Below are positions 1 to 15,597 of a DNA stretch of 30,398 nucleotides, in pieces. Position 1 is the stretch's first letter. Every line of letters begins with the position of its first letter. This DNA is from an uncultured Chitinophagaceae bacterium. GTDB taxonomy: Bacteria; Bacteroidota; Bacteroidia; Chitinophagales; Chitinophagaceae. The notes beneath the pieces are model-generated. The model saw nothing but the letters and a program-made list of their open reading frames with translations. It was not told where the DNA came from and searched no databases. The translations under genes were made by a program, and so were the position numbers. Location of the stretch: assembly GCA_946885665.1 (NCBI GenBank), contig CAMPGT010000014.1, positions 1 to 30,398 of the forward strand, read 5' to 3'.

Positions 1-131
1 GCCAAGGCAAAGAGCCCGGCGTATCCCCCGCTGGCGGGGGCGACGTAACAGGAATTTCCGGCACCGGCCAAGGCAAAGAGCCCGGCGTATCCCCCGCTGG
101 CGGGGGTGGCGCGGAGCGCCGGGGGTGGACC
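1..131 (+). repeat. In-frame repeat insertion: 66-bp tandem repeat plus a full 45-nt double-hairpin element
   Basis: Bases 1-40 recur exactly at 67-106, a 66-bp (22-codon) period. The second copy continues into a complete 45-nt element at 87-131. The element has a first hairpin CCCCCGCTGGCGGGGG and a second hairpin with GGCGC/GCGCC arms (here loop GGA), then a G-rich tail ending in GGACC. In the helicase frame the shared part reads VSPAGGG and the full element reads VSPAGGGGAERRGWT, without stops. The same element occurs in non-coding DNA at 2888-2932 and 13575-13619, so it is a dispersed repeat rather than native helicase sequence. Its left end lies outside the window. Confidence 0.9.
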
Positions 132-2042
132 CTAAGCATCTGGGGCATCAGCGCCACCATCGGCAACCTCGACGAGGCGCGCCGCGTGCTGCTCGCACCA
201 CTAAGCAACCAACCCTCCTTCCTCGTAAAAGCGAACATCCCAAAACCCATCGAAGTCATTTCTGTCTTTCCCGAAGAAATAGAAAAATATCCCTGGGCCG
301 GTCACATGGGACTGAAATTGGTGCACCATGTCATCAACATCATCAACAACAGCCGCACCACGCTCATCTTCATCAACACGCGCGGCATGAGCGAAACCTG
401 GTATCAAACGCTCCTAAGAGAATGCCCCGACCTGGCCGGGGCCATCGCACTGCATCACGGCTCGATCGATATGGAAATGCGCACGTGGGTAGAAGAATCA
501 CTGCACAGCGGACTCCTAAAAGCGGTGGTATGCACCGCGAGCCTCGACCTGGGCGTTGACTTCAGGCCCGTAGAAACCGTGATACAGGTAGGATCCCCGA
601 AAGGTGTGGCGCGCTTCCTGCAACGGGCGGGACGAAGCGGCCACCAACCCGGCCAGGTGAGCCGCATCTATTTTCTTCCCACACATTCCCTGGAACTCGT
701 GGAAGCGGCGGCGCTGAAAGCGGCGAAAGACATCAACTTCATCGAGAGCCGCGATCCACGCATGCTTTGCTTCGACGTGCTCATCCAATACCTGTGCACG
801 CTCGCCGTTTCTGATGGCTTCAGGCCCGAAGATATATTACCGGAGATACGCTCAACACATTGCTTCAGCGACATCACCGACGATGAATTCAATGAAATAT
901 TGTATTTCATCACCTCGGGAGGCTCGGCACTGCAACAGTATGATGAATTTAAAAAAGTCGAAATCATCGACGGCCTTTACAAGATCACCAGCCGAAGAAT
1001 CGCCATGCGCCACCGCATGCACATCGGTACGATCGTGAGCGATCCGATGCTGAAAGTAAAATTTTTCAGCGGAGGTTATGTGGGCATGATAGAAGAATGG
1101 TTCATTTCCCGCCTGCAAGCGGGTGATGTTTTTACCCTGGCAGGACGTGTGCTCGAATTCATGATGATCAAGGACATGACGGTGCTCGTGAAAAAATCGT
1201 CCGCTAAGAAGTCAATGGTACCGAGCTGGCAGGGAGGCAGAATGCCGTTGTCGGCAAACCTCGGTATTATGCTGCGAAAAAAATTCAGCGAGGCACACGC
1301 CGTTGTCGAAAACGATCTCGATACCGACATTGAAATAAAAGTGCTCAAGCCGCTGTTCACCCTTCAGCAAAAGTTGTCGCATGTTCCTAACGAAAATGAA
1401 TTGCTGATCGAACACATCGAAACAAAAGACGGCTATCATTTATTTGTCTATCCATTCGAAGGCAGGCTCGTTCATGAGGCGCTGGGTGGCCTGCTCTCCT
1501 ATCGCATCAGCCGCATCACTCCCATCACCTTTTCATTTGCCATGAATGACTATGGTTTCGAATTGCTGAGCGATCAACCCATACCTGTTGATGATACCAA
1601 CGTTGATGAACTTTTTTCTGCGGAAAATCTTATTGAAGATATTCAGCGAAGCGTGAACGCCGCAGAAATGGCAAAAAGAAAATTCAGGGACATTTCCGTC
1701 ATCGGCGGACTTATCTTCCAGGGATATCCGGGCGAATATAAAAAGGCCCGGCACCTGCAATCATCAGCGTCGCTGCTGTTCCAGGTTTTTAACGAATATG
1801 ACAAAGACAATCTGTTGCTGAGGCAAGCTTACAATGAAGTGCTGGAACAGCAGATGGAAGAAATGCGGCTCCGCGACACGCTGTCGCGCATTCATCAGTC
1901 GAAAATTGTCATCAAATTTCCTGAGCGGTTAACGCCTTTTTGTTTTCCATTGAAAGTGGACAGCATGCGCGAAAATCTTTCTTCCGAAAAACTCGAGGAT
2001 CGCGTTAAACGAATGCAGCAGCAATTGAACAGGCAGGCATAA
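1..2042 (+). CDS. Ligase-associated DNA-damage-response DEXH-box helicase (Lhr-like), 5'-truncated by the window edge
   Basis: The reading frame is open from base 3 to the stop at 2040-2042, so the gene begins before the window; a GTG at 186 is internal. Visible superfamily 2 helicase parts are motif III (SAT, about 150-158, in the context IWGISATIGNLDEAR), motif IV (TTLIFINTRG), motif V (ASLDLGVDF) and motif VI (QRAGRSGH, 621-644). A long C-terminal region typical of the Lhr-like, ligase-associated family follows. Walker A and DEXH lie upstream, outside the window. The family works as an ATP-dependent 3'-5' DNA translocase and is usually encoded with PdeM, a beta-CASP nuclease and an ATP-dependent ligase; PdeM is the next gene here, convergent with an 8-nt gap. 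The odd feature is bases 1-131, a repeat element read in frame as low-complexity Gly/Pro-rich peptide. It ends about three residues before the conserved motif III block. Whether the protein still works cannot be told from sequence. Confidence 0.9.
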   Translation, partial: QGKEPGVSPAGGGDVTGISGTGQGKEPGVSPAGGGGAERRGWTLSIWGISATIGNLDEARRVLLAPLSNQPSFLVKANIPKPIEVISVFPEEIEKYPWAGHMGLKLVHHVINIINNSRTTLIFINTRGMSETWYQTLLRECPDLAGAIALHHGSIDMEMRTWVEESLHSGLLKAVVCTASLDLGVDFRPVETVIQVGSPKGVARFLQRAGRSGHQPGQVSRIYFLPTHSLELVEAAALKAAKDINFIESRDPRMLCFDVLIQYLCTLAVSDGFRPEDILPEIRSTHCFSDITDDEFNEILYFITSGGSALQQYDEFKKVEIIDGLYKITSRRIAMRHRMHIGTIVSDPMLKVKFFSGGYVGMIEEWFISRLQAGDVFTLAGRVLEFMMIKDMTVLVKKSSAKKSMVPSWQGGRMPLSANLGIMLRKKFSEAHAVVENDLDTDIEIKVLKPLFTLQQKLSHVPNENELLIEHIETKDGYHLFVYPFEGRLVHEALGGLLSYRISRITPITFSFAMNDYGFELLSDQPIPVDDTNVDELFSAENLIEDIQRSVNAAEMAKRKFRDISVIGGLIFQGYPGEYKKARHLQSSASLLFQVFNEYDKDNLLLRQAYNEVLEQQMEEMRLRDTLSRIHQSKIVIKFPERLTPFCFPLKVDSMRENLSSEKLEDRVKRMQQQLNRQA

Positions 2043-2785: not shown

Positions 2786-2887
2786 GTATCCCCCGCTGGC
2801 GGGGTTTCACGCAAAGACGCAAGGAAATTGCAAAATGTATCCCCCGCTGGCGGGGTTTCACGCAAAGACGCAAGGAAACTGCAAAAT
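2786..2887 (+). repeat. Two 51-bp tandem units carrying the left arm of the hairpin element
   Basis: Units 2786-2836 and 2837-2887 are identical except for one base. Each starts with the first 19 nt of the hairpin element (first hairpin) and continues with a 32-nt segment containing CGCAAAGACGCAAGG. The period is 17 codons and one frame is stop-free through both units. The full 45-nt element follows directly at 2888. Confidence 0.9.
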
Positions 2888-2932
2888 GTATCCCCCGCTG
2901 GCGGGGGTGGCGCGAAGCGCCGGGGGTGGACC
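2888..2932 (+). repeat. Full 45-nt double-hairpin repeat element
   Basis: The copy contains the first hairpin (CCCCCGCTGGCGGGGG) and second hairpin (GGCGCGAAGCGCC), then a G-rich tail ending GGACC. It differs from the copy in the helicase gene (87-131) by one base, in the second loop. It lies 12 nt past the stop of the minus-strand DUF5916 gene, where its folded transcript could also affect 3' ends. Confidence 0.88.
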
Positions 2933-13574: not shown

Positions 13575-13619
13575 GGTCCACCCCCGGCGCTTCGCGCCAC
13601 CCCCGCCAGCGGGGGATAT
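13575..13619 (-). repeat. Full 45-nt double-hairpin repeat element, minus orientation
   Basis: The reverse complement matches the copy at 2888-2932 over 44 of 45 bases, with only the first base changed. Both hairpins are intact. It lies between the small-protein terminator and the end of the beta-helix gene and is bordered at 13621 by a 7-nt repeat array. The order (array, then element) is the same as at 2721-2932. Confidence 0.9.
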
Positions 13620-13620
13620 C

Positions 13621-13650
13621 GTCTCCCGTCTTCCGTCTCCCGCCTCCCGC
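13621..13650. repeat. 7-nt tandem repeat array
   Basis: On the plus strand the units are GTCTCCC, GTCTTCC, GTCTCCC, GCCTCCC and a partial unit. They are the complement of the GGGAGAC/GGAAGAC units at 2744-2778. The array begins directly after the stop codon of the beta-helix gene and ends one base from the hairpin element. Confidence 0.8.
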
Positions 13651-15597
13651 CTAATAGCTCAACGCCCTCTTATAAAAAGATATCACGTTCCAGGTGGTTC
13701 CATTGCTCTTCACCGTCATGGCGCCCCTTCCGAGGATAATTTTTTCGTCGCTCGCCGAAATGCCGTTCACCTGCACTCTTTTAACCGTCTGAAGATTTTT
13801 AATGACGATTTCCCTGTCGGGCCACGATGCGGCAGCCGGCAAATTGACTATCGCCGTGGCCACAGAGGCATTCATCAATACCGTTTTAATATCCGCAGGA
13901 ACGGTGTAAGATGATCCGGTCCACTTTTGCGTTTTATATTCCTCGCCTATTTTAGAAACCTTGTACTGGCCGTTCACCCACAGGCACCTGTATGTGCCCG
14001 CCGAGGGGAACCGCGACGCCGGAATCAGTTGCGCAGAATTATCCGAGCGGGTAAAGCTCAGGGGGTACTTAGGACTAAGATATTCGACAAGGAATTCATG
14101 TCCATCGCGCACAAGATCACCCGCATTGATTTTCAAAACCTTGGCCTGGTTGGCCTCTACCCTCACCAATCCGATGTTCGGCGGCAAATTAAGGGTGGTG
14201 CCCGTAGTGCTCGTTTTTACCCAGAAAAATGTCGACTTGTAGGGTACGGATCTTTTCACCCCGTTAATGCGATAGGTCATCGCCTCTATCGTCGGGTATT
14301 GCCCGGTCTGGCTGATAAGATCGTGTTTTTTACTCACCTCGAAGTTGGTATAGGCATACTTGTTTGTGGTGATCAACAGCTTGTTTGGCGTTATCGAATT
14401 GGTGGCCTCGCTACCCATCAGTATTTGATTGGGCTGGTCGCTCCATAGCGGCGACGCGCTGATGATAGTGTTGGAACCAAGGCGGCCGGGAACAAACAGA
14501 CTTTCGATCATCGCAAATGCACCTACGAATTTGTTGCAGATCGCGGTTGCCGGATCGAGGTTGATCCCTTCACGTATCGAAGCCAGTTCAAAACGGCCAC
14601 CAGTAAACGTGTTATAGCGCGCATGCGAAAGCACGATGGCCTTCTCCAAACCTTCAAATCCCACATCGGTAAACATATGACCATTCATTGGGTCGCCGGC
14701 ATTGGAACCCGCTTCTTTCACCATCACCACGCCGTACCAGCCTCCCTTGCCGTACGTACCTGCCGGTCCGCGGCCGAGCTGGCCACCATAAAAGTAGTTG
14801 GAGTTATTCCAGTTTCCATTCAGGTCGCTCACACCGCCAACAGAAATTCTTATCTGAACAAAATTGTGATGAATAGTGTTAAACCGAACGCGGTTGTATT
14901 GGCAGCCGGCAGGGAATCCACCGTTTTTATTTCCGGTGAGATGAATGCCGTATTTAAAATCTTTCACTTCGTTCACTTCTACATCGCACTGCATCGCATT
15001 TTTCAGCAGTACGCCGGTTCCCGCATACGCGGCATAAGTGGATGCCGTTGATCCGCCTTTGTTGCCCCCTGCGATGAGGCCATAACTCTTCAGGCTCTGG
15101 TTCTGCCCCTCGAGGATGAAACCCGATCCCCTGGCGAAATAAATATCACCGTAAATTTCCAGGTAAACTTTTTTCTTGCTGGTAAGCGGCAGGGCAATGG
15201 ACCCTTTTACATAATATCCGCCCTGCGGAACCTGCACCACCTGGTTACGTGAAGCAGCATTGATCGCCGCAAGGAATGCAGCAGTATTGTCGCTGCCCGA
15301 CGACCCGTTCCAGTCGCCCTTCATACCGAACCATCTCACATCGATGGCGCCGGAATACATTCGTTTGAACCGTTTTGTTTTATTGACGATCACCGTTCCG
15401 CCGTTATCTTTCGACAGAAGATCCTTTGCATCATAATAGAACAAACCCTGCCTTCCGGCATCTGTAATAAAATAAGGTGTGGTGGTGGACGGTGTTGCAA
15501 GCGTCCTTAAAGAAGCGATGGTAATTGGTTTTTGCGCGGCCAGGGTGGAGACAGCAAATGTCAGCAGTGCCAGTATGATTGGTTTCCTCATAAGCAT
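13651..15597 (-). CDS. Secreted pectate-lyase-3-like beta-helix protein with tailspike-like modules
   Basis: The 648-aa product starts with a signal peptide (MLMRKPIILALLTFAVSTLAAQ; start at 15597 or at the second ATG, 15591). Residues about 45-130 (GLFYYDAKD, DNGGTVIV, AIDVRWFGMKGDW, DNTAAFLAAINAA, VVQVPQGGYYV) match the entry region of Pectate_lyase_3-type parallel beta-helices as used in phage tailspikes and surface polysaccharide-active enzymes. The centre has beta-helix features (YNRVRFNTIHHN, YNTFTGGRF). The C-terminal region (TVPADIKTVLMNASVATAIV, NLPAAASWPDREIVIKNL, TWNVISF) resembles small beta modules of tail-fibre-like proteins. No T9SS sorting domain is visible. A role in binding or cutting a polysaccharide is inferred; catalytic residues are not identifiable. 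It lies 90 nt downstream of the T9SS hydrolase on the same strand. Confidence 0.75.
   Translation of the reverse strand: MLMRKPIILALLTFAVSTLAAQKPITIASLRTLATPSTTTPYFITDAGRQGLFYYDAKDLLSKDNGGTVIVNKTKRFKRMYSGAIDVRWFGMKGDWNGSSGSDNTAAFLAAINAASRNQVVQVPQGGYYVKGSIALPLTSKKKVYLEIYGDIYFARGSGFILEGQNQSLKSYGLIAGGNKGGSTASTYAAYAGTGVLLKNAMQCDVEVNEVKDFKYGIHLTGNKNGGFPAGCQYNRVRFNTIHHNFVQIRISVGGVSDLNGNWNNSNYFYGGQLGRGPAGTYGKGGWYGVVMVKEAGSNAGDPMNGHMFTDVGFEGLEKAIVLSHARYNTFTGGRFELASIREGINLDPATAICNKFVGAFAMIESLFVPGRLGSNTIISASPLWSDQPNQILMGSEATNSITPNKLLITTNKYAYTNFEVSKKHDLISQTGQYPTIEAMTYRINGVKRSVPYKSTFFWVKTSTTGTTLNLPPNIGLVRVEANQAKVLKINAGDLVRDGHEFLVEYLSPKYPLSFTRSDNSAQLIPASRFPSAGTYRCLWVNGQYKVSKIGEEYKTQKWTGSSYTVPADIKTVLMNASVATAIVNLPAAASWPDREIVIKNLQTVKRVQVNGISASDEKIILGRGAMTVKSNGTTWNVISFYKRALSY

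Follow-up and report, generated by a model that had tools for sequence, protein, structure and literature searches.

In-frame palindromic repeats in a ligase-associated helicase from Chitinophagaceae, in the linker ahead of motif III

The helicase gene and the repeat element in the window

The window, as we call the whole stretch of 30,398 nucleotides analyzed here, comes from an uncultured Chitinophagaceae bacterium (contig CAMPGT010000014.1) and begins inside a gene encoding a ligase-associated DEXH box helicase (Table 1). In a profile search, the truncated frame matched TIGR04121 over residues 44-676 with 853.4 bits (curated cut-off 850), the 5' part of the gene being absent, and WH_Lhr, DEAD_assoc, and Helicase_C domains were matched in the same frame. 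Next to the helicase gene, on the opposite strand (2051-2707), lies a gene for the ligase-associated endonuclease PdeM (TIGR04123, 209.8 bits against a cut-off of 150). The part of the helicase gene that follows the linker was compared with that of five relatives, giving pS values of 0.75-0.82 and pN values of 0.09-0.17 (5 comparisons); the gene is under purifying selection.

A reading of this DNA made from the sequence alone (hereafter the sequence-only reading) had described a 66-bp tandem repeat and a complete 45-nt double hairpin inside the helicase frame, ending about three residues before motif III and interrupted by no stop codon. All of these points were confirmed. Positions 1-40 recur at 67-106, with an offset of 66 nt, and the repeat-family call places the starts of the units at 21 and 87. 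The frame runs without a stop across the insert, and the repeat-derived residues 1-43 are followed by LSI-WGISATIGN, so that the insert ends three residues before the motif III block. The presence of the same element at two non-coding sites was likewise borne out, one of the two copies being reverse-complemented, and the 44-nt identity between both intergenic copies is not a matter of chance in 30 kb. The window thus holds three complete copies, two of them intergenic, and dispersal is judged from these 30 kb only; of the earlier label "mobile or spreading repeat", a dispersed palindromic repeat inserted in frame stands, mobility being what the dispersal suggests.
Table 1 Features of the window that bear on the insert.
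Positions	Strand	Feature	Remarks
1..131	+	3' portion of the in-frame insert lying within the window (43 residues)	Linker totals 103 residues in P0001
3..2042	+	Ligase-associated DEXH box helicase (Lhr-like), open frame	TIGR04121; 5' end lost at window edge; holds the insert
21..86	+	Unit of 66 nt (22 codons), composed of the half element GTATCCCCCGCTGGCGGGGG and a spacer particular to the site	Neighbouring units partly at 1-20 and 87-106
87..131	+	Complete 45-nt double-hairpin element, in frame	Encodes VSPAGGGGAERRGWT; open in six frames
132..2039	+	Conserved helicase part, starting with LSIWGISATIGN (motif III)	pS 0.78, dN 0.099 versus L001
2733..2780	+	GAGACGG-type 7-nt array	Adjoins intergenic hairpin copies
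2786..2887	+	Two intergenic 51-nt tandem units	Half element plus site-specific spacer
2888..2932	+	Complete copy between genes	98% identical to 87-131
13575..13618	-	Intergenic copy, reverse orientation	44 nt, exactly equal to 2889-2932
13619..13652	-	Similar 7-nt array	Abuts second intergenic copy; 88% complementary to 2747-2780

Tandem half-element units come before a complete copy both in the gene and at 2786-2887, and at both places the duplicated unit consists of a half element together with sequence particular to that site. In the intergenic 51-nt units, whose length is a multiple of three, the half element is coupled with TTTCACGCAAAGACGCAAGG, which resembles another short repeat. Each intergenic site also has a 7-nt array that, read in the orientation of the element, lies 5' of the hairpin copies, an arrangement that looks like one composite unit of array and hairpin.

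The element at 87-131 folds as two adjacent hairpins with -13 kcal/mol (DNA parameters), which is no better than its composition predicts (z of -1.24; 24 of 200 shuffles equal it). We also considered its openness in six frames as a special property and dropped this idea, as shuffling the window element left all six frames open in 1624 of 3000 cases; the insert is therefore free of stops partly because of its composition. Only 4, 2, and 2 frames are open in the repeats of three related loci (L001, L069, and L009, respectively) described below.

Full-length proteins and the length-variable linker

From a protein search of which the best 120 of 8000 matches were used, we retrieved five full-length proteins bearing the insert: P0001 (926 aa), P0002-P0004 (882 aa each), and P0005 (924 aa). 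Their contigs (4.3, 4.0, 3.1, 6.2, and 9.5 kb, respectively) are all distinct from the window contig, and both junctions of the insert are present in each. Over the 636 residues that follow the insert, P0001 departs from the window at 2 and P0002-P0004 at 1-2. The linker of P0001 measures 103 residues between anchor columns, the median over 114 proteins being 17; the earlier estimate that the insertion adds at least 43 residues thus holds for the visible part, and the full linker is longer. In the TIGR04121/Lhr family, with which the window helicase shares its domains and motifs at a score above the curated cut-off (5v9x, M. smegmatis Lhr, was used for comparison), P0001 differs by this stretched linker before motif III.

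The P0001 linker comprises, in order, VHPRPFGPPPPAGDI, a spacer, and three 22-residue units, the last of which runs out in a complete forward copy (VSPAGGGGAERRGW). Translation of the reverse strand of the 87-131 copy gives VHPRRSAPPPPAGD, which is close to VHPRPFGPPPPAGDI. By our reading, the GAA loop of the 2889-2932 copy turns the S of VHPRRSAPPPPAGD into F, and the leftover differences (R to P, A to G) are what a paired change in the second stem could produce. The insert of P0001 seems to be delimited by two element copies in opposite orientation, because VHPRPFGPPPPAGDI resembles the reverse-strand peptide of the element, a likeness seen at the protein level only.

The number of 22-residue units is three in P0001 and P0005 and one in P0002-P0004, which are shorter than P0001 by exactly 44 residues, the length of two units; this shortening could reflect either collapse by the assembler or a real loss. 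Three further proteins (P0006-P0008), 88-89% identical to P0001 and the closest ones that lack the repeat, have no insert in their linker, an absence that the sequence-only reading had suggested looking for. In a set of 4695 candidates of 509-1620 aa, the insert peptide turned up in P0001-P0005 only; within this length range, and as far as clear matches go, nothing suggests that the window element stands in frame in any other protein. We had taken P0005 for a second species (92% identity) and dropped this assignment, its differences being clustered in the last 126 residues. That region holds 52 differences from P0001, residues 201-300 hold 7 (mostly in the insert), and there are few elsewhere; the divergence of the C-terminus is perhaps the result of a frameshift in that assembly. 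Given that P0005 is otherwise near-identical to P0001, all known carriers of the insert fall into a single species-level cluster.

Restricting the 120 proteins to the 114 with 780 aa or more, we surveyed the lengths of 149 segments between conserved columns. The length of the linker has a standard deviation of 15.5, ranges from 10 to 103 residues, and takes 29 distinct values. The next most variable segment has a standard deviation of 2.3, and only 3 of the 149 segments exceed 1. Another long linker, that of P0076, contains Gly/Ala/Arg-rich near-repeats (RGLGRARGLGSAP) of a different origin.

In the RecA fold, the stretch ahead of the motif III strand lies on the side facing away from the ATP cleft. 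When P0001 is aligned to 5v9x, the first aligned stretch stops at residue 194 of P0001, which is the start of the linker and follows the helix after motif II. Taking this topology together with the sequence alignment, the tolerance of the loop would be due to its facing away from the cleft.

Repeats in the linkers of relatives

The window element was sought widely at several stringencies. It was found at none of 80 genome loci when as many as 7 substitutions in 44 nt were allowed. None of 39 genomes (L001-L040 minus L032) has the complete element (43 nt, up to 3 mismatches), and none of 394 genomes of the family has the fuller element (30 nt, up to 3 mismatches). Viral contigs gave no exact match of 23 nt, plasmids gave no match, and the window had no Rfam match at gathering scores. 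Wider occurrence was seen for the half element only: searched as 22 nt with at most 2 mismatches, it is present in 25 of 396 genomes of the order, with 0 for the reversed control. At one locus (L131 of genome G086, 1375-1771), four half elements are spaced at 123-126 nt; behind each of them comes CGAGGTACGAGCC and, within a few bases, GGGGTGGAA. Because each of these half elements carries both, the two-hairpin plan seems to exist elsewhere in the order with another second stem.

Of the 80 loci, 73 yielded a linker. Dispersal was examined for four linkers picked by eye for their striking content (L001, L069, L074, and L009). The first belongs to the nearest genome found (G001, 85% identical) and contains a 40-nt palindrome with 14 matches in that genome (9 forward and 5 reverse; reversed control 0). 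None was found in three other genomes, and among 117 genomes of the family only G001 itself has the palindrome. The linker carries an exact copy (C85:4272-4311, the helicase match being at C85:4332-6233). By our reading, the copies in G001 show paired changes in the stem (GCGGC-GAA-GCCGC versus GCGCC-GAA-GGCGC). Nine of the 13 other copies lie in a stop-to-stop frame of at least 90 aa and 4 have no spanning frame. A domain scan of ten frames from 7 of the 9 loci (leaving out L086 and L095, as well as one frame each at L088 and L097) gave a Pfam domain above the cut-off at L088 only, where the domain starts at residue 84 and the repeat is near residues 31-44.

A third repeat occupies the linker of L069 (G085). 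It has 11 matches in its genome, two of which are the linker pair, with 0 for the reversed control and none in three other genomes. Outside the linker, 8 of 9 copies were examined; 7 have no spanning 90-aa frame and one lies in a 145-aa frame. The linkers of L001 and L069 thus hold repeats that are unrelated to the window element and dispersed in their own genomes, a point that the sequence-only reading had not raised. The linker of L074 (G414) carries a 7-nt GTCAATN array with 149 partly overlapping matches in that genome, and such arrays occur in all 7 genomes tested at up to 2 mismatches; the reversed control had 4 matches in one of these genomes and none in the other six. Five palindromic units make up the repeat of L009; all 5 genome matches are on one contig within 250 nt, with none elsewhere in its own genome and 0 in seven others. 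As this array is limited to the linker, tandem growth happens without dispersal.

In order to survey repeats in general, we compared the best direct or inverted self-match of each of the 62 linkers of at least 45 nt with those of control segments, no more than 100 per linker, of equal length and taken from its own gene. Linkers whose self-match was reached by at most 2% of their controls numbered 18 for direct repeats (about 2 expected), 8 for inverted repeats (about 2), and 22 for either (about 4); the other 40 have no direct or inverted repeat beyond the controls. RNA folding is weakly unusual, with z below -2 in 9 of the 62 linkers and a mean of -0.69 against -0.09 for controls (p 0.04). 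With so weak a folding signal, the general notion that linkers are hairpins was dropped: the mark of the linker site is repeats, not hairpins as such.

Origin of the inserts and relation to known intragenic repeats

We interpret the locus as follows, with a probability of roughly 0.82: copies of the window element stand in frame in the linker before motif III, and this linker is a tolerant loop that captures unrelated intergenic repeats. A repeat would arrive in the linker in frame and without stops. In its tolerance of foreign sequence the linker would stand alone within the protein, and for this reason in-frame, stop-free repeats that have landed there would survive. Whole 66-nt units, being a multiple of three, could later be gained or lost by slippage or unequal recombination. 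The insert itself is unlikely to have a dedicated function and would form a flexible loop, rich in Gly and Pro, that is remote from the active cleft.

Alternatively, the repeat may be moved by a RAYT/IS200-type transposase that recognizes the hairpin, and may have hit the gene by chance. We consider this possible but doubtful. It would suit the occurrence of hairpin repeats in both orientations and the putative inverted pair in P0001, and Y1_Tnp (PF01797) matches were found in 3 of the 6 genomes tested, including G085. However, G001 has 14 repeat copies and no PF01797 match, so a Y1 transposase is seemingly not needed there, and the window element starts with GTAT rather than GTAG. It is unlikely that the linker is a preferred, possibly useful landing site for dispersed repeats across the Chitinophagaceae, with species-specific repeat families built in and a loop length that alters activity.

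Selection for the inserts, whereby the loop would tune the helicase or an mRNA hairpin would pace the folding of the first RecA domain, seems very unlikely. Many linkers are short (minimum 10 residues between anchors) and the inserts share neither composition nor peptide, even though unrelated repeats do recur at one site. The 9 linkers that fold unusually well might also point to selection, but the difference from controls reaches only p 0.04. Di Nocera et al. 2013 (PMC3733652) speculate that repetitive extragenic palindromes (REPs) have changed the activity of repair genes.

A false assembly join of repeat reads to a helicase fragment at the left edge, which the sequence-only reading had offered as an alternative, is very improbable. 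In its favor are the start of the window within tandem repeats, a common situation at contig ends, the number of units that varies among contigs (three versus one) as assembler collapse could also make it, and samples behind P0001-P0005 that are possibly not independent. Against it, these five full-length proteins come from other contigs with both junctions in each, four of them differ from the window at 1-2 of 636 residues, and L001 has a similar in-frame insert in another genome.

The tolerant loop that we favor makes a compact and testable case of non-coding repeats turning into protein, in which the site, the gene, and the fold are constant and the repeat family varies by lineage. The kind of event is already described. 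Rickettsia palindromic elements (RPEs) are, according to Di Nocera et al. (PMC3733652), palindromes that sit in frame in genes whose protein products are likely functional, and the window helicase resembles them in carrying an in-frame palindromic insertion in a conserved host gene. The RPEs covered there have another sequence, belong to another phylum, and occupy many genes, whereas here several unrelated repeat families are found in one linker of one gene. The sequence-only reading knew of no equivalent beyond Rickettsia; this has to be corrected, since the same source reports intragenic REPs in several species, many of them in DNA repair genes. The genes it names include those for excinuclease, recBCD, DNA polymerase I, and DNA ligase; more than half of the intragenic REPs in repair genes occur as dimers or groups, and recB of two Xanthomonas species has different REPs at about one site. 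Its authors suggested flexible linkers or loops as one reason for REP tolerance and considered repair genes hardly to be REP targets just by chance. For the present helicase gene, the tolerance of one loop could account for this pattern without selection.

The apparent novelty is that repeat families without relation to one another recur, within Chitinophagaceae, in a single linker of a single helicase. In a literature search at title level, with subscription journals thinly covered, no report was found of repeats in the TIGR04121 helicase or in Chitinophaga genes. The window helicase shares REP-like repeats in a DNA repair gene with the intragenic REPs described in PMC3733652, and differs from them in its Bacteroidota host, in the TIGR04121 helicase, in tandem units of 22 residues whose count varies among contigs of one species-level cluster, in the 7-nt arrays found besides hairpins at one site, and in having no consistent GTAG or CGTC tag. 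With regard to these tags, which mark the GTAG and CGTC superfamilies of REPs, the complete copies start with GTATCC or ATATCC and end with GGACC; CGTC is found next to a single one of the three complete copies, at 13620-13623, outside the element and as part of the 7-nt array, and is absent at the other two.
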